From contig JAHDBD010000001.1 in assembly GCA_020630575.1 (NCBI GenBank), forward strand, positions 62,001 to 126,000: a DNA stretch of 64,000 nucleotides, read 5' to 3'. Both the position numbers and the translations under genes were made by a program. Shown piece after piece: positions 4,632-24,074 of this stretch. The notes beneath the pieces were generated by a model, which saw only the letters and a list, made by a program, of their open reading frames with translations, ran no database searches and had not been told where the DNA came from. The first letter of the stretch is position 1. Each line of letters starts with the position of its first letter. The stretch is from Bernardetia sp. Its GTDB lineage: Bacteria; Bacteroidota; Bacteroidia; Cytophagales; Bernardetiaceae.

Positions 4632-4665
4632 GAAGGTACAATTACGAATTACGAATTAAAAATTA

Positions 4666-4702
4666 CGAACTGTTCGCTTTTGTGTGAACTGTTCGTTTTT
4701 TT
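4666..4702 (+). terminator. hairpin terminator after the 938-aa T9SS gene
   Basis: GAACTGTTC is almost self-complementary and occurs twice (from 4668 and from 4686). The two copies can form a 9-bp stem with one T-T mismatch, followed by a seven-T run. It lies 35 bases after the stop codon and next to AATTACGAATT-type intergenic repeats. Confidence 0.55.
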
Positions 4703-8297: not shown

Positions 8298-8417
8298 ATC
8301 AATTACGAATTACGAGAGTAAAATAATGAATACTCAATCAGTTTTTGTTTTTATATATAAATACACTAGGTTTATTTTTGCATTTCAATTCGTAATTTGT
8401 AATTGAAAATTCGTAAT

Positions 8418-8660
8418 TTAACTTATTGAATTTCTAACTTTCTGCGTATATTCACGCATAGCAGAACGAGCATCAACGCCCTCTTTTTCCATTTTTTCTT
8501 TTACCCAAACGGCTGCAATTACGTGTGTAAATTGTTCGCCTTCATCTTCCCCTTTTACTTCAAAGGCTGGCGTTTCGCCTTCTTCCATTGCAGCTTCAGC
8601 TTTTTTGAGTTCTTCTAATGAGTGATTTTCGACTAATTGTTTTATAACTGGTAATTTCAT
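8418..8660 (-). CDS. DUF6952 family small protein
   Basis: An 80-aa acidic cytosolic protein. It begins MKLPVIKQL and ends AMREYTQKVRNSIS, which matches recalled DUF6952 members found beside thioredoxin and peroxiredoxin genes in Bacteroidota. It lies 18 bp after the RidA-like gene and in the same direction as the thioredoxin, so the three genes probably form an operon (thioredoxin, RidA-like, DUF6952). The peroxiredoxin often seen in this cluster is missing here. The role is unknown; a link to redox homeostasis is inferred from context only. Confidence 0.7.
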   Translation of the reverse strand: MKLPVIKQLVENHSLEELKKAEAAMEEGETPAFEVKGEDEGEQFTHVIAAVWVKEKMEKEGVDARSAMREYTQKVRNSIS

Positions 8661-16545: not shown

Positions 16546-17121
16546 ATGAAGTCTATTTTATATGTTTTTCTGATTCTTTTTCTCTCAACTTTCTTTTTTT
16601 CTTGTAATCCTGATAAAGAAAAACGAGTTTCTCCGACTGAACCAAAAAATTCTACTACTCAAAATTCAGTTTTATTTTTTAAAAATATGCGAAGTTTGGA
16701 TTATAACAAAAAAGATGAACCCAAACTAAAGCGGGAAATTTATGTACACGAAGATGCTAATAAAGATACTTTAGCTCCTGTTTTGAATATGACGATTGTT
16801 TATTTGTGGGATAAAGACAAAGCCTATATCATCACAGACCCAAATAAATATATTGAAGATTATTTTGATAAAAATAAAAATGACACATTCAAAATTAGAT
16901 GGAAAAACCCCAAAACAAAGGCACAAGGTACACTTTTTTATATTGCAGGACACGTCGATACGCAATACGAATTTGCAACACGTATTTACAACAGTCTTTT
17001 AGACAAACATGAGTTTTATATGTTACCTGATGAAATACCAATTTTGAATACTGAAAAAGAACGAGAAACTTTCCGTATTACGATGATGGATTATTATCGA
17101 TTAGTGGGGGTTTTTAGGTAG
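16546..17121 (+). CDS. hypothetical lipoprotein (191 aa)
   Basis: The first 20 residues are an SPII signal with lipobox TFFFSC, then NPDKEKR, so the product should be an envelope lipoprotein. The mature part is lysine- and acid-rich with a compact C-terminal domain (AYIITDPNKYIEDYF, TLFYIAGHVDTQYEFATRIY, YYRLVGVF). No conserved family was recognised. The frame is complete and monocistronic. Confidence 0.7.
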   Translation: MKSILYVFLILFLSTFFFSCNPDKEKRVSPTEPKNSTTQNSVLFFKNMRSLDYNKKDEPKLKREIYVHEDANKDTLAPVLNMTIVYLWDKDKAYIITDPNKYIEDYFDKNKNDTFKIRWKNPKTKAQGTLFYIAGHVDTQYEFATRIYNSLLDKHEFYMLPDEIPILNTEKERETFRITMMDYYRLVGVFR

Positions 17122-17428
17122 GTTATTTTTTTTTGAAAATTAGTTGTGTTAGAAAAATATAATCATTCATAAAATCATACACTACTAAAAATAATTTTTC
17201 TCTACCAAAAACGAACTAAATAAATATTTATAGGACTTTTTTATATTTAATTATACTTTTTTATTAAAAAAGTTTTTTTTAAGTGCTTTTATGTAACAAG
17301 GTGTCAAAATATCAAAAATGTTAATTTGGAAGGGAATGATTCTTTAGCGTACATTTGCATCAAGAAATCTAGCTAGTTATTCTTTTTGTGCTTTTTATAA
17401 ACAAAACCCTTTTTTTTAAAATAAAAAA
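17122..17428 (+). other. 307-bp upstream region of the phase-variable lipoprotein
   Basis: AT-rich and without genes. It contains one good promoter (17325-17357) and long T and A runs just before the ATG at 17429, including an eight-T tract at about 17410-17417 and a seven-A tract at 17423-17429, which could add further slippage. Confidence 0.5.
17325..17357 (+). promoter_or_regulatory. Bacteroidota promoter TTTG-N21-TACATTTG
   Basis: TTTG at 17325-17328 and TACATTTG at 17350-17357 match both promoter boxes. Start of transcription would fall near 17363, so the transcript begins about 65 bases before the ATG at 17429. This favours that ATG as the original start of the lipoprotein. Confidence 0.65.
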
Positions 17429-17488
17429 ATGAAGCTTAAACTTAGTTTTTGTAATTCAATTCAATTCAATTCAATAGTAAATCACTGA
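17429..17488 (+). CDS. 19-codon leader frame created by the repeat tract (true lipoprotein start, currently out of frame)
   Basis: ATG at 17429 follows an A-rich stretch typical of start sites here. It reads MKLKLSFC, enters the AATTC repeats, and hits TGA at 17486-17488. With one AATTC unit fewer (3) or two more (6), the same ATG would read into ...NSKSLKTLAFLSLVCILSAC, a complete lipoprotein signal peptide, and on through the 422-codon gene. At four copies the frame is off. Confidence 0.6.
   Translation: MKLKLSFCNSIQFNSIVNH
17453..17475 (+). repeat. AATTC pentanucleotide tandem repeat (4 copies plus AAT)
   Basis: Four perfect AATTC units (17453-17472) plus AAT, eight codons after an ATG and just before a signal-peptide-coding stretch. 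Five-base units change the reading frame when copies are gained or lost, so slipped-strand mispairing could switch the gene. Confidence 0.8.
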
Positions 17489-17508
17489 AAACTCTTGCGT
17501 TTTTATCA

Positions 17509-18777
17509 TTGGTTTGTATTTTAAGTGCGTGTGATAATGTAACTGACAAGTTAGAAGAAATACAAGTTGATAATCAAGAGTTATCACTACAAAAATTTGA
17601 ATCCGATAATAAATTTGATCAAGAAAACGAAAATAATTTTAAAGATATTCGCAGTGTGGGAAGCATTATTTCTCCTTTAATGGAAAGTAAAGATTATTCT
17701 TTCCTTTATGAAATTCTTGCAGCTATTAAGTCTAAATATTATTTAGATGAAATGGTGTTTTTAGGAGATTTATTAGATAACCATTCTGAGTTATATGCTT
17801 ATGAACCTTTTATAAAAGAGAACAAATATGATGGTCAGTTTAAGAAATTTTTTGAGGAAACTTCGGGTAATTTGAAATTATCTGAAAAAATAAATGGAGA
17901 TGTTACCTTTTATCTTCCTTATTCTGAAGATCATTTGGATAAAGATATAAAATCAACATTAGATCAAACAGGTGTAACTATTGTTTTAGTTCAAGTAGAA
18001 GCAGCCGATGTAGCTTCTGGACTTCGCTATTATGATGGAAAAGTAGAAAAAGTAAGAGTAGACGAAGATTATGTAATAAATAATTTGACTCTAATCATTG
18101 GAATGAATGAAGCTAGAGATAAAGCTATGACTTATAAATCAGCAATATCTACTATTAAAAACTCTACTAATTATGTAGAGCGAACAGAAGCTGTAATGCA
18201 AGTTTCCACTAGCCAAGCTATATTGACGGTTCAACTAGATCCTCTAATTGGTACTATTAATTCTGGTGGTTCAGAAATTTATATGGGACGTATAAACGGA
18301 TATTTGAAATATGAAGGAAGTCAAATAAATAGTGTAGAAGGAGATATACGACCTATTAAGTTTACAAGAAAAGAAATTAAAGATAAGAAAGTTAAAGATG
18401 TCTTTGGTTATTGGGATTATGATTGGAATGAAGCAAATTTAGAGCAAGTTTATGCTGTTTGGGAGGACGATAAAAAAGCAACTAAAACAATTTCAGGAGC
18501 TTTAAAAACTACTATTAAAAAACTAACAGGAATAGAAATAGAAGCTAATATAGGTTATAGTGTTGTAGTAGAAACGAAAGATCCTATTGTTAGACAGTTA
18601 AAGCTTACTCGTAGAGCTTTTTTAGAAACTAATATACCAAAATCAACTTCTCCTTGTAGTGCATACCCTAATTTCAAAGATAAAAGATTTTTGCCTACAA
18701 CAGGCTTAAATTATTGGACACCTTTTGATTGTGGTGGTAGTTCTTGGTGGGTCTATACTTTACCTTATACTAAATAA
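17509..18777 (+). CDS. hypothetical lipoprotein, probably phase-variable, 5' end out of frame
   Basis: The open frame gives 422 aa from a TTG, starting VCILSACDN, so the lipobox LSAC is only seven residues from the start, too short for a signal peptide. In the same frame upstream, after a stop at 17452-17454, lies KSLKTLAFLSL, the rest of a normal signal peptide; its ATG at 17429 is in another frame because of the AATTC tract. The mature protein is acidic and has a beta-rich middle with two GTINSGGSE / YMGRINGYL-like strands, then a WDYDWNEANLEQVYAVW segment and a Trp-rich C-terminus. No family was recognised. An outer-membrane-like gene follows 84 bp downstream and may be co-transcribed. Confidence 0.7.
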   Translation: MVCILSACDNVTDKLEEIQVDNQELSLQKFESDNKFDQENENNFKDIRSVGSIISPLMESKDYSFLYEILAAIKSKYYLDEMVFLGDLLDNHSELYAYEPFIKENKYDGQFKKFFEETSGNLKLSEKINGDVTFYLPYSEDHLDKDIKSTLDQTGVTIVLVQVEAADVASGLRYYDGKVEKVRVDEDYVINNLTLIIGMNEARDKAMTYKSAISTIKNSTNYVERTEAVMQVSTSQAILTVQLDPLIGTINSGGSEIYMGRINGYLKYEGSQINSVEGDIRPIKFTRKEIKDKKVKDVFGYWDYDWNEANLEQVYAVWEDDKKATKTISGALKTTIKKLTGIEIEANIGYSVVVETKDPIVRQLKLTRRAFLETNIPKSTSPCSAYPNFKDKRFLPTTGLNYWTPFDCGGSSWWVYTLPYTK

Positions 18778-18860
18778 TTTCATATAAAATAATTTTATAA
18801 GCTACTTTATTTTTTAGTAGAGTAGTTTATATATTTAAAATTTAATAAATAATTATTAAT

Positions 18861-19517
18861 ATGAACAAAAAAATTTTTTTGTTATTTTTTAATATTTTTG
18901 TTTTTGTTTCTTGTCTTAGTTATTCTCAAAATAAATGGAGTGCAGATATAGGAATTGGAGGAGTTAAGGCATTGGATTTTGTAAAACAAGTGCCTGAACA
19001 AACTTATGGATATGTTCCTTATAATCCATTAGGTTATCAAGTTGGAGCAGGAGTTTCACTCACAAAGGATGAAAAACATCGTTTTCGTTTTTCATATAGT
19101 CGTAGAAAACACATTTATTATTTAGAAGATGATATTTTTTTAAGTCAGAATGCAGCAATAATTATTGATGAATATAAAATGCCTTTTCAATGGACTACCA
19201 GACTTTATGAATTAAGTTATGAACGTAATTTGTTGAATAAAGGAAGACATGAGTTTTGGTTAGGTTCAGGAATTCTATTAGAAAGATTAGTAGATCAATA
19301 TTATACTTTTGATGCTGCAAATGGAATTTTGATATTAGAACAAAGAACTTTAAAACGAAATAAACTCAATGAATTAGGCTCATTTGCTCGTCTATCTTAT
19401 CAATATGAACTATACGAACATGTGTCAATAGGTTTACGTAGTCAAGTATATTTTATTATTACTGCTCCTGCTATTAGCCATGTAGCAATTACTCCTACTT
19501 TGGCTATTAATTTTTAA
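18861..19517 (+). CDS. outer-membrane beta-barrel-like protein (218 aa)
   Basis: A signal peptide (residues 1-22, ending CLSYSQ) is followed by alternating amphipathic strands (WSADIGIGG, RFRFSYSRRKHIYYL, WTTRLYELSYERNLL, HEFWLGSGILLE, LGSFARLSYQYEL). It ends in a C-terminal phenylalanine (TLAINF), as expected for an outer-membrane beta-barrel recognised by BamA. It lies 84 bp after the phase-variable lipoprotein and before a strong terminator. The specific function is unknown. Confidence 0.75.
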   Translation: MNKKIFLLFFNIFVFVSCLSYSQNKWSADIGIGGVKALDFVKQVPEQTYGYVPYNPLGYQVGAGVSLTKDEKHRFRFSYSRRKHIYYLEDDIFLSQNAAIIIDEYKMPFQWTTRLYELSYERNLLNKGRHEFWLGSGILLERLVDQYYTFDAANGILILEQRTLKRNKLNELGSFARLSYQYELYEHVSIGLRSQVYFIITAPAISHVAITPTLAINF

Positions 19518-19535
19518 TTAAAGTATTTATATCAT

Positions 19536-19581
19536 AAAACCGTTTACCAAAACTTCAAAAAAGTTAGGTAAACGGTTTTTT
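19536..19581. terminator. bidirectional terminator
   Basis: AAAACCGTTTACC pairs with GGTAAACGGTTTTTT, with a second small AACTT/AAGTT pairing inside. It lies between the convergent ends of the outer-membrane protein gene and the GCS2-CBS gene. Confidence 0.85.
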
Positions 19582-19610
19582 AGTACATAATAATTAAAAA
19601 TCAAAAAACT

Positions 19611-21668
19611 TTATTCTTCCTCCTCTCCAGCCAAAACATTGGTAAGTAAATCTATGCCTTCTATTTTTATTTCTCTATCTTTTATATTTTGAGGTTGTGA
19701 AGAGTTTTTTAGCTTTTCATTTTTTTCATTTTGTTCTCTGCGTTTTCTTCTTCGTTCTGCAATTCGTTTCAAAAGACTAGCTGTAATATTTAAGAAATTA
19801 GCTTCTGTAATTATTCCAACTAGATTTTTATTTGCCACAACTGGCAAACAACCCACTTTGTGTTTTCGCATCAAATCCATGGCTTCATGAATATTGGCTT
19901 CTGGCGAAACAGTATGTACATTAGTTATCATCAAATCTTTGACTGTTGTTATATTATTTTTTATATCTCTTTGTTGAGAGTTGAAATGACGCAGCAAAAG
20001 ACGAGAAGAAACCAAACCACCCAAAACACCATCACGACATTCAACAGGTAAATAACGAATGCGTTGCCAGTCCATAATATCGGCTGCAAATTCGGGAACA
20101 TCATCTTCTGTAACTGTAAAAAGGTCTGTATCCATAAACTCTTCTACTAACAAATCAGAAGGTTGCCAATCTGAAATATCTTCAATGGTTGCTAATTTCC
20201 ATGTATGAATGGGTTGATTACTTTTTTGTTTGGCTGCAATGGCTACCGTAATAGCTGTCATTACTTCCTCTTTTGTGGTCTGTTTTATCAGTTTAGAATA
20301 GGATTGTAACATCCAACTAGAGCCTGTTTGTTCGGATTTTACACGAGCCTCAACTATTCCGATGTATTTATCAATGTCTGTTTGATCGACATTTGCTTTT
20401 TGTAGTCCTTTTCTTGCCATCGGAATTATCTCGTTCAAGAGTAAATTCTTAACACTCATTTTTTTGCCATTTACCCACTTTACATCTACTCGTAATCCAT
20501 GACGAGCCACATTCATAAAATTTGCACGAGCATCATCAAAATCCATTATTTCAGTTACATCTTTATAGGTATCCTCAAAAGCATTCATAGTGCCAATCCA
20601 AAGAGCTGCATTTGCGACTTCATCTACCACAGTTGGACCTGCTGGCAGAATACGGTTTTCAATTCTCAAATGAGGTTTTCCATTCGGACTTACACCATAA
20701 CAAGGACGATTCCAACGATATACCGTCGAATTATGAACATTCAAGGCACGCAACTTTGGTGTTTTTCCTTCTTGAACCATCTTTAAAGCGTCTTCATCAA
20801 TATCAGTTGTAAGTAAAACTCTAAAACGCATAATGTCTTCACGGTACAAATCTAAAATTGAACCTTTGAGCCATTTATTGCCAAACATCACACGAGGACT
20901 GCGTTCACGCAAATGTTCTGATGAAATACGAGTATCGACCGACTGACGAAAAAGTGCAATTCTGGTTTCACTCCAAAGACGTTTATTAAAAAGCATTGGA
21001 GAGTTGCAAGCTGCTGCCAAAATAGGCGCAGAAATAGCCATAGCGACATTATATTTCGATACAAACTCTTCAGGCTTTATCTGCAAATGAACTTGAAAAC
21101 TGGTGTTACAAGCCTCTACTAACGCTGTATCGTGTAAAGTATTTAGTTCATCAATTCCTTCAATTTTTAATTCGTAAGTTTCCTTTCCTCGCAATTTTTT
21201 GAGAGAATTCATGAGGGCATAATACCTATCTAATGGAGTAATATTGTCAGTAGTGAGGTCAAATTTTCGTATTGTTGGTAATATTCCTGTCAAGATATAA
21301 TCAATATCCTGTTTTTTAGTAACTTTTTCTAAAGCCTTTAGTAAACTGATTGTTTCGGCTTCCAATTTTGAAAAACAATTACCCTTGAAAGGTTGAGGTT
21401 CTAGGTTACATTCTACATTAAAACGAGCCAATTCGGTTGTAAAACTATCATGATTTAGTTCTTCCAAAACTTCTAAACAAGTGGCAGAGGGTTTTCCGTG
21501 GTCATCTACCAGACAAATTTCTTGTTCTGCTCCAATGTGCATTTGTTCGTTATCGAAGCAGTCTTTTTTGAGCATCAAATCAAGAGCTTGAATATCTTTG
21601 AGTAAGTATCGTGTAAATTCATTGAGGTCAAGCTGATTATCTGCTATTCGTACATTCAAATCTCCCAT
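19611..21668 (-). CDS. glutamate-cysteine ligase family (GCS2) protein fused to two CBS domains
   Basis: A 685-aa fusion. Residues 1 to about 470 are a GCS2-like carboxylate-amine ligase: MHIGAEQEICLVD (glutamate/Mg site), CNTSFQVHLQI, SPRVMFGNKW and the HLRIENRILPAGPTVVDE segment. Two CBS motifs follow at about residues 505-560 (LLVEEFMDTDLFTV..RYLPVE) and 574-630 (VKDLMITNVHTVSPEANI..GCLPVV). The C-terminal 55 residues are charged. GCS2 enzymes form gamma-glutamyl bonds, and CBS pairs usually sense adenosine nucleotides, so nucleotide control of the ligase is a fair inference. The substrate cannot be read from the sequence. The gene is monocistronic. Confidence 0.85.
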   Translation of the reverse strand: MGDLNVRIADNQLDLNEFTRYLLKDIQALDLMLKKDCFDNEQMHIGAEQEICLVDDHGKPSATCLEVLEELNHDSFTTELARFNVECNLEPQPFKGNCFSKLEAETISLLKALEKVTKKQDIDYILTGILPTIRKFDLTTDNITPLDRYYALMNSLKKLRGKETYELKIEGIDELNTLHDTALVEACNTSFQVHLQIKPEEFVSKYNVAMAISAPILAAACNSPMLFNKRLWSETRIALFRQSVDTRISSEHLRERSPRVMFGNKWLKGSILDLYREDIMRFRVLLTTDIDEDALKMVQEGKTPKLRALNVHNSTVYRWNRPCYGVSPNGKPHLRIENRILPAGPTVVDEVANAALWIGTMNAFEDTYKDVTEIMDFDDARANFMNVARHGLRVDVKWVNGKKMSVKNLLLNEIIPMARKGLQKANVDQTDIDKYIGIVEARVKSEQTGSSWMLQSYSKLIKQTTKEEVMTAITVAIAAKQKSNQPIHTWKLATIEDISDWQPSDLLVEEFMDTDLFTVTEDDVPEFAADIMDWQRIRYLPVECRDGVLGGLVSSRLLLRHFNSQQRDIKNNITTVKDLMITNVHTVSPEANIHEAMDLMRKHKVGCLPVVANKNLVGIITEANFLNITASLLKRIAERRRKRREQNEKNEKLKNSSQPQNIKDREIKIEGIDLLTNVLAGEEEE

Positions 21669-22708: not shown

Positions 22709-24037
22709 ATGAAAAAAAACACTTCAATTTTTAAAATAATAGTTACAAATTGTAGCTTTCTATTCATACTTTTTATTTTTGGTTTTGCTAAGGCTCAACC
22801 AGAAGTTTATACCAAAGCCGTTGAAATGGCTCAAAAGGGAAATCCTCAAGATGGATTAAATCTTCTCAAAACAGAGTTAAATGCTGATTCTAAGAATACG
22901 GAGTTGCTTTATTATACAGGACTTTATTTGGAACAACTCAAAAATATTCCTAAAGCTGTTGAACTTTATAAAGAAGCTGTCAAAATAGATAAAACTAATT
23001 TTGAAGCAAATTATAGACTGGGATTTTTGTATGAAAAAGTAGATTCTATTTCACAAGCTTTTTCTTATTATGAAATGGCTCTCTCTCATGTTCCTGCTTC
23101 CAAAGAACAAGAAAAAAATACAATTTTGGGCAGGATTATTATTCTTTCTGATGAAGCTGAAAAATTCGATGAAGAAACTATAAAGTATGCCGATGAGTAT
23201 TTTGAATCTGAAAATACAGATAATATTCCTCCTCCTGTTGCACTTTCATTAGCAAATATTCTCTATCAAAATTCAGAATATGAAGATGCTCAAGAACTTA
23301 CAAAATCTATTTTAGAAAAGACTAATTCGAATGGTTATCCTATTCAAAAAGCTGCTTTTATTTATACTAGCTGTGCTTTTCGTTTACAGGATTTTGATGG
23401 AATGACGACCTATTATGCTAGAATAAAAGATGAAAAACTCAAAACTGAATTAGAAAATACAGCTCCTCAATATTATTATAATTTGGGTTATGCTTATTTT
23501 TTTATGTATGACTTTGATAGAAGTATGCGCTATCTTAGAACCGCTCTCACAATAAAGCCTGATTATTCTTCTGCACAGATTTTTTTGAATAAAGTAGAAG
23601 ACCAAAACACAGATAAATCAGATGCAATTTATCATATCAAGAAAAAGATAGAATTGTCTAAAGAACTTTCTCATGATGCAGCTTATTATTATGACCTCAC
23701 TCGTCTATTTGTGTATGAAAAACGCTATAACGAAGCTATAAAAGTAGCTGATTCATCTTTGCGTTTAGAACCTAATAGACATGAAGTTTATTTTTTAGAA
23801 TCAATAGCTAACTATAAAACTAATAGAGAAAAAGAAGGAATAGTAATTATACAAACAGCACTCAAAAACTTCCCAAAACTAGATAATGAAACACGTTCTA
23901 AATATTATTTTCTTTTAGGATTACTTTATAAAAGAACCCAAAATTATGGAGAAGCAAGGAAAGCCTTCGAACAATCCAAAAGGGGAATTTTCGAAGACGC
24001 ATCTCATTGGGAAATCAAATCAATTACCAGTAAGTAA
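22709..24037 (+). CDS. periplasmic TPR-repeat protein (442 aa)
   Basis: The N-terminal signal peptide ends near FGFAKAQPEV. The rest is helical with recognisable tetratricopeptide repeats, for example ELLYYTGLYLEQLKNIPKAV, NYRLGFLYEKVDSISQAFSY, YYNLGYAYFFMYDFDRSMRY and YFLLGLLYKRTQNYGEARKA. It is probably a periplasmic protein-protein interaction scaffold. No enzymatic domain is present. The gene is enclosed by inverted copies of a 32-bp intergenic repeat (22657-22688 and 24043-24074), and its right copy starts only 5 bp after the stop. Confidence 0.85.
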   Translation: MKKNTSIFKIIVTNCSFLFILFIFGFAKAQPEVYTKAVEMAQKGNPQDGLNLLKTELNADSKNTELLYYTGLYLEQLKNIPKAVELYKEAVKIDKTNFEANYRLGFLYEKVDSISQAFSYYEMALSHVPASKEQEKNTILGRIIILSDEAEKFDEETIKYADEYFESENTDNIPPPVALSLANILYQNSEYEDAQELTKSILEKTNSNGYPIQKAAFIYTSCAFRLQDFDGMTTYYARIKDEKLKTELENTAPQYYYNLGYAYFFMYDFDRSMRYLRTALTIKPDYSSAQIFLNKVEDQNTDKSDAIYHIKKKIELSKELSHDAAYYYDLTRLFVYEKRYNEAIKVADSSLRLEPNRHEVYFLESIANYKTNREKEGIVIIQTALKNFPKLDNETRSKYYFLLGLLYKRTQNYGEARKAFEQSKRGIFEDASHWEIKSITSK

Positions 24038-24042
24038 TTACG

Positions 24043-24074
24043 AATTACGACCTGCCAAAGCAGCGACGCTAATT
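24043..24074 (-). repeat. 32-bp intergenic repeat, copy 2 (inverted, downstream of TPR gene)
   Basis: This is the reverse complement of the copy at 22657-22688 with 3 differences. It is embedded in AATTACGAATTACGA-type sequence (24034-24084). A more distant partial match (AGCTTCGCTG) occurs near 7926-7935. Confidence 0.7.

Follow-up and report, generated by a model that had tools for sequence, protein, structure and literature searches.

An AATTC tract as a candidate frame switch of a lipoprotein gene in Bernardetia, with other repeat units at the homologous site of relatives

The opa genes of Neisseria are described to carry CTCTT repeats in the code of the leader peptide, where slippage changes the reading frame (PMC3960869, PMC3745409). 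For Mycoplasma fermentans, the phase-variable lipoprotein p78 is described with a poly-A tract (PMC3711429), and in Bacteroides, invertible promoters are outlined as a form of phase variation through DNA inversion (PMC11868660).

In the window, which is the whole 64-kb stretch of Bernardetia sp. DNA that was analysed, an AATTC tract precedes the lipobox of a lipoprotein gene. The arrangement resembles opa in having a frame-shifting repeat in the 5' leader-coding part, the tract here being at the signal sequence. Unlike opa, which encodes a single outer-membrane protein, the lipoprotein gene is followed by a separate gene for a barrel-like protein, the host belongs to another phylum, and the repeat unit varies between lineages in this lipoprotein family. 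In searches of Pfam and PDB sequences, no homology to Opa outer-membrane proteins was seen, and the lipoprotein itself has no match reaching a cut-off in Pfam, NCBIfam, or the PDB sequences, with no PDB match below an E value of 0.07. Frameshift switching of a surface lipoprotein would be shared with the phase-variable lipoproteins of mycoplasmas, another phylum, which are likened here by description. With the invertible promoters of Bacteroides, the locus shares the phylum and would share phase variation, but those invert DNA, whereas slippage is proposed here. The switching mechanism is of a known kind. Neither the family nor the exchange of units at a single site seems to have been described in the searched literature; in the open-licence literature, we found no report of this lipoprotein family and no paper on phase variation with Cyclobacteriaceae, which we take to be the family coded f19.

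The AATTC tract and its reading frames in the window

The features of the locus are collected in Table 1. The sequence-only reading had placed an AATTC tract between an ATG and a differently framed signal sequence of a lipoprotein, and the tract is present there. The promoter-like site, the eight codons preceding the repeat (the ATG counted), the closing TGA, and an open reading frame (ORF) of 422 residues, running from TTG 17509 to 18777 within the lipoprotein frame, all lie where that reading had put them. Its frame arithmetic is also right: the ATG lies 56 bases 5' of the CTG and in frame 2, i.e., out of frame with it, and the ATG frame and the lipoprotein frame join at three or six units, not at four or five. 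No in-frame ATG was found in the lipoprotein frame of the window upstream of the lipobox Cys codon, and at the assembled tract length of four units the gene reads, on its sequence, as OFF.

Table 1. Features of the lipoprotein locus, in window coordinates
Feature	Position	Strand	Basis or remark
Strain-specific segment holding the lipoprotein/partner pair	17133..19611	.	
Promoter-like site: TTTG (17325-17328), 21-base spacer, TACATTTG (17350-17357)	17325..17357	+	Bacteroidota type (presumed consensus)
ATG (17429-17431) and 19-codon frame, closed at four units by TGA 17486-17488	17429..17488	+	Sequence reading
AATTC, 4.6 copies, presumed frame switch	17453-17475	+	TRF, 100% matches, sequence reading
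Lipoprotein reading frame, stop-free over 440 codons	17455..18777	+	Signal sequence KSLKTLAFLSLVCILSAC; Cys codon of the lipobox at 17530-17532
CTG (lipoprotein frame) where G005b has its ATG; candidate weak start when OFF	17485..17487	+	
Partner gene, 218 residues, barrel-like by position, signal sequence, C-terminal F	18861..19517	+	

The signal sequence with lipobox and Cys was identified by reading and is that expected of a bacterial lipoprotein; the lipobox Cys is aligned in all 17 rows of profile A5, where C16 is invariant. The tract is longer than chance would give: over 100 dinucleotide shuffles, the expected number of AATTC triplets in a row is 0.00, and the longest period-5 tract observed is 23 bp, compared with a maximum of 18 bp (mean, 13.7 bp) in 100 shuffles. 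Perfect arrays passing the threshold (units of 1 to 9 bases, A/T homopolymers excluded) are scarce, with four in 464 kb, the AATTC tract being one of them and the only one in the window. Promoter-like sites of the TTTG-N21 form, whose Bacteroidota type we assign on a consensus taken as given, lie at most 260 bases upstream at 12 of the 42 loci; the expectation for TANNTTTG by itself is 0.17 occurrences in 260 bases.

Repeat units and frames among relatives

Homologues were gathered by protein profiles and not by repeats, and the profile searches led to 42 loci with a readable 5' part, broken ones included. The single-protein query matched 2 of 59 genomes, its own included, and a search of genome contigs gave two loci (the first scan none). 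The homologue draws of the successive profiles overlap: A1 matched 3 of 11 family genomes (E 10) and 10 of 390 order genomes (E 0.01), A3 matched 1 of 13 genomes in the family of Thermoflexibacter ruber DSM 9560 (G060, a culture-collection strain of the order Cytophagales) and 6 of 344 in the family of G353, A4 matched 3 of 395 genomes of the class and 20 of 390 of the order, and A5 matched 33 of 344 in the family of G353. In the window's own family, A5 matched 5 of 11 genomes at E 0.1, only the window's genome (G000) and G005 being convincing; the latter is, by homologue, Flexibacter sp. CG_4_10_14_3_um_filter_32_15. Matches without the N-terminal part (e.g., G445, G492, G423, G217, G595, G540, G212, and G250) stand outside the 42, and the weak profile matches L031, L046, L047, L061, and L062 were rejected, since their translations look like unrelated proteins.

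A tandem repeat lies at the gene start, before the lipobox, in 20 of the 42 loci, with units of 1, 2, 4, 5, 8, or 19 bp, none of them a multiple of three, and lineages differ in their unit. The copy number of AATTC is not the same everywhere, being 4.6 in the window and 7.6 at the homologous place in G005b (L003/L038), from the same genus. Relatives other than G005b have different frame-shifting units at the homologous place: AAATTTCC in G060 (5.8 copies), TTCCAAAG in G160 (4.5), C14 in G353, TATC in one phase or another in G198 (5.8), G282 (6.5), G276 (9.8), G333 (6.0), G270c (5.8), G461 (4.0), G554a (6.0), G419 (3.5), and G554b (three, by eye), CT in G270a (18), G270b (8), G327a (8 plus 5), G324 (5.5), and G327b (9), and, in G005a, a 19-mer (2.1) that spans the ATG itself. 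The tracts of G554b, G419, and G005a are short; the repeat count takes in neither the 10-mer of G644 (2.6 copies) nor the G8 of G224 nor any short A run. In the TATC and CT members, the hydrophobic stretch of the signal peptide (YLSIYLSI, LSLSLS) is encoded by the tract itself.

A fixed-threshold scan with A/T homopolymers excluded, which misses G005a, G333, G554b, and G419 of the 20, found repeats in 16 of 42 family starts versus 1 of 310 background ORFs that are not matched for gene class (Fisher p 1.4e-15); with the window removed, the family count is 15 of 41 (p 1.1e-14), and with A/T homopolymers included, repeats are found in 17 of 42 starts and 9 of 310 background ORFs. The background consists of stop-to-stop ORFs of at least 150 codons from 464 kb, taken from nine other genomes and the window, and its lipobox-like subset, which is class-matched, has any repeat in 1 of 32 ORFs.

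Counted from the ATG nearest upstream of the tract, the nine TATC members show all three frames (frame 0 in G282, G419, G554a, and G554b; frame 1 in G198 and G276; frame 2 in G333, G270c, and G461). An in-frame ATG 14 to 50 residues before the Cys is present in 8 of 20 repeat members, G005b being counted through its post-repeat ATG, versus 14 of 19 others (p 0.054), a count that omits G532b, G567, and G224; we infer that the repeat members lie near the one third expected of random frames. G264, G421, G644, G025a, and G025b have neither a counted repeat nor an in-frame ATG. Among the repeat members without an in-frame ATG, 10 of 12 keep open frames of at least 414 codons, the two others being G270c and G160.

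Three near-identical pairs were chosen for a comparison of tract lengths. G282 and G419 (253 of 258 aligned bases identical) are three CTAT units apart, G554a and G554b (235 of 248) differ by three TATC units and also by small changes 5' of the ATG, and G270a and G270b (245 of 251) have 18 versus 8 CT and a net difference of 18 bases. The net differences of 12, 12, and 18 bases are all multiples of three and thus imply no on/off change among these pairs, which show tract length moving while the frame is kept, and not a change of state. The tracts of the window and G005b likewise differ in length by a multiple of three, 15 bases.

In a tree of 33 members, which excludes 9 of the 42 with open frames below 150 codons (among them the repeat members G005b, G270c, G327b, and G160), the window, G005a, and G060 form a starred clade, each with a different unit. 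At least eight changes are needed for repeat class and at least four for repeat presence, and some terminal branches are long. From these sequences, the presumed switch seems to have been remade more than once among relatives, and the different units at one homologous place offer a natural series for studying how switches arise and get replaced. Two runs of single bases were seen in other settings. The distant family member L067 (G1028) carries, between promoter-like elements, a C12 run some 190 bases 5' of the ATG, and in L078 (G224) the G8 run stands directly 5' of the lipobox Cys, with flanking frames not cleanly joined to the gene body.

Proposed slippage and alternative explanations

The tract, the frames, the other units at the same place, the whole-unit differences, and the conserved coding frame are direct observations. 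The locus is likely to be a contingency locus, in which AATTC slippage would switch translation of the lipoprotein on and off. Transcription would run from the promoter-like site, and translation would initiate at the ATG. Replication slippage within the population would then add or remove AATTC units and shift the frame, and the lipoprotein would be made only at unit numbers that join the ATG to the signal sequence in one frame. Its location would be the cell surface, with a putative coupling to the partner gene, and the selective force may be phages, predators, or rivals. As in contingency loci, a tandem repeat with a unit length not divisible by three lies between the start codon and the gene body, and the gene body of the window is intact while out of frame. 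The tract of 4.6 units is short, which counts against a switch, as do the frame-keeping length differences of the close pairs, the in-frame ATG contrast with a p of only 0.054, the five members that lack both a counted repeat and an in-frame ATG, and the high or undefined dS of most pairs. The frame-shifting repeats of relatives at the same place support slipped-strand phase variation, as the sequence-only reading had proposed, and make it a rather probable explanation.

A start after the repeat, at the CTG of the window or the ATG of G005b, would instead place the repeat within a leader or short upstream ORF, where it could tune expression without frame switching. The TGA overlaps the CTG at four units, which would permit termination-reinitiation, and the in-frame ATG of G005b adjoins the 3' side of the repeat, at the place of the window's CTG, and gives MKPLVALCIVGFLNSC; G276 has a late in-frame ATG, and G060 has an in-frame TTG. 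Homologues starting downstream of the repeat had been named in the sequence-only reading as an objection, and this holds in part: such ATGs exist in G005b and G276 and speak against a switch in those members. CTG start codons, however, are rare, and in G282, G419, G554a, G554b, and G324 the only in-frame ATG at most 50 residues from the Cys is 5' of the tract, which is read through. A post-tract start would also lose the hydrophobic part of the signal sequence in the TATC and CT members, and we regard expression tuning of this kind as unlikely.

It is more doubtful still that the gene is dead or misassembled, the frame difference being due to permanent damage, or to a draft assembly that collapsed the repeat, and not to switching. 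The window's genome is such a draft (94 contigs, 84.5% completeness), stops break several relatives (G327b, G421, G567, G585b, and G644 among others), and the segment holding the pair is strain-specific, all of which would fit. Against this, the window frame runs through its 440 codons without a stop, the dN/dS relative to G005a is 0.33, though with a dS of 1.6, and out-of-frame members with long open frames are found in several families of the order. An artefact of one assembly is unlikely, since AATTC is also present at the homologous place in G005, the assembly of another species. Over the 12 chosen pairs, dN/dS is 0.08 to 0.34 in 11 and undefined in one; dS exceeds 1, or has no defined value, in 9 of the 12. 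For the slippage switch, T. ruber DSM 9560 is a culture-collection member in which switching could be measured.

Partner genes, mosaic gene bodies, and locus context

An ORF of 150 to 260 residues is next on the same strand at 24 of the 35 loci whose downstream sequence extends for roughly 800 bases or more; the remaining 11 are broken, followed by another family member, or without such an ORF. The partner starts between -6 and +10 bases from the first base of the lipoprotein stop codon in 16 of the 24, and in the window 83 bases separate the stop codon from the partner. An aromatic residue is found in the last three positions of the partner in 16 of 24. The partners following the lipoprotein genes of the window and T. 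ruber are homologous (32% over 104 residues), and no Pfam match was found for the window partner at E 0.1. Pfam outer-membrane barrel models match some partners only, below the cut-off, so that the barrel is what we infer. The lipoprotein and a small, probably barrel-shaped outer-membrane protein would form a two-gene unit.

The gene bodies of L117 (G270a/G270b), L121 and L087, and L131 are mosaic, with near-identical early parts and diverged later parts. In blocks of 40 codons, the DNA identity of G270a and G270b (L117) is 95 to 100% over 200 codons and then 50 to 70%, that of G554a and G282 is 81 to 88% and then 41 to 53%, and that of G282 and G419 is 92% in the first block and 41 to 65% later. 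Parts of the gene bodies seem to have been exchanged between copies. Tentatively, these could be undescribed phase-variable, mosaic lipoprotein/barrel pairs of Bacteroidota that we take to be free-living, in which the repeat was replaced several times by other units at a single fixed position, the C-terminal part was exchanged between copies, and phages, predators, or rivals did the shaping; this broader picture is possible without being the likelier outcome. If true, it would mean phase plus antigenic variation outside pathogens, and the family would extend repeat-driven switching of lipoprotein pairs to Bacteroidota with this presumed lifestyle. Section 8 of a review from 2025 raises the question of whether multi-locus phase variation is truly confined to pathogens or whether this impression stems from database bias (PMC11868660).

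In G059, a genome of the same species (96% complete), 926 other bases with a 194-residue ORF replace the strain-specific segment, and four profile searches did not find a family member there. A defence gene was rejected as an explanation, with no PADLOC match among four proteins, and so was a plasmid gene, with no tblastn match in the plasmid collection. The last approximately 54 bases of the upstream 191-residue gene (window 17064-17117) recur with 89% identity at L038:3091-3144, 5' of the G005b lipoprotein gene, as if, judging by this remnant, the G005b copy once stood at the window's locus. The last approximately 100 bases of the two G005 lipoprotein contigs, L002 and L003, are similar (TTAGGG(C/T)AAACGCACGAAA); this sequence cuts the G005b gene and might represent a mobile-element terminus.

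A dispersed AATTC element was considered and rejected: AATTC stands three times in a row, without mismatch, at a single further position of the window's genome and in 3 of the 11 genomes of the family, the triple of G059 being inside an ORF and that of G005:C450 outside the listed ORFs. Partly degenerate heptamer arrays of the AATTACG or AATTCGT type lie in the window at 4640-4669, 8301-8315, 8387-8418, and 24036-24050, one of them right at a gene's end. In G059, an AAAAT array of 26.2 copies (L152:12144-12274) stands directly 5' of the ATG of a predicted secreted protein of 406 residues and is likely a second length-variable locus.
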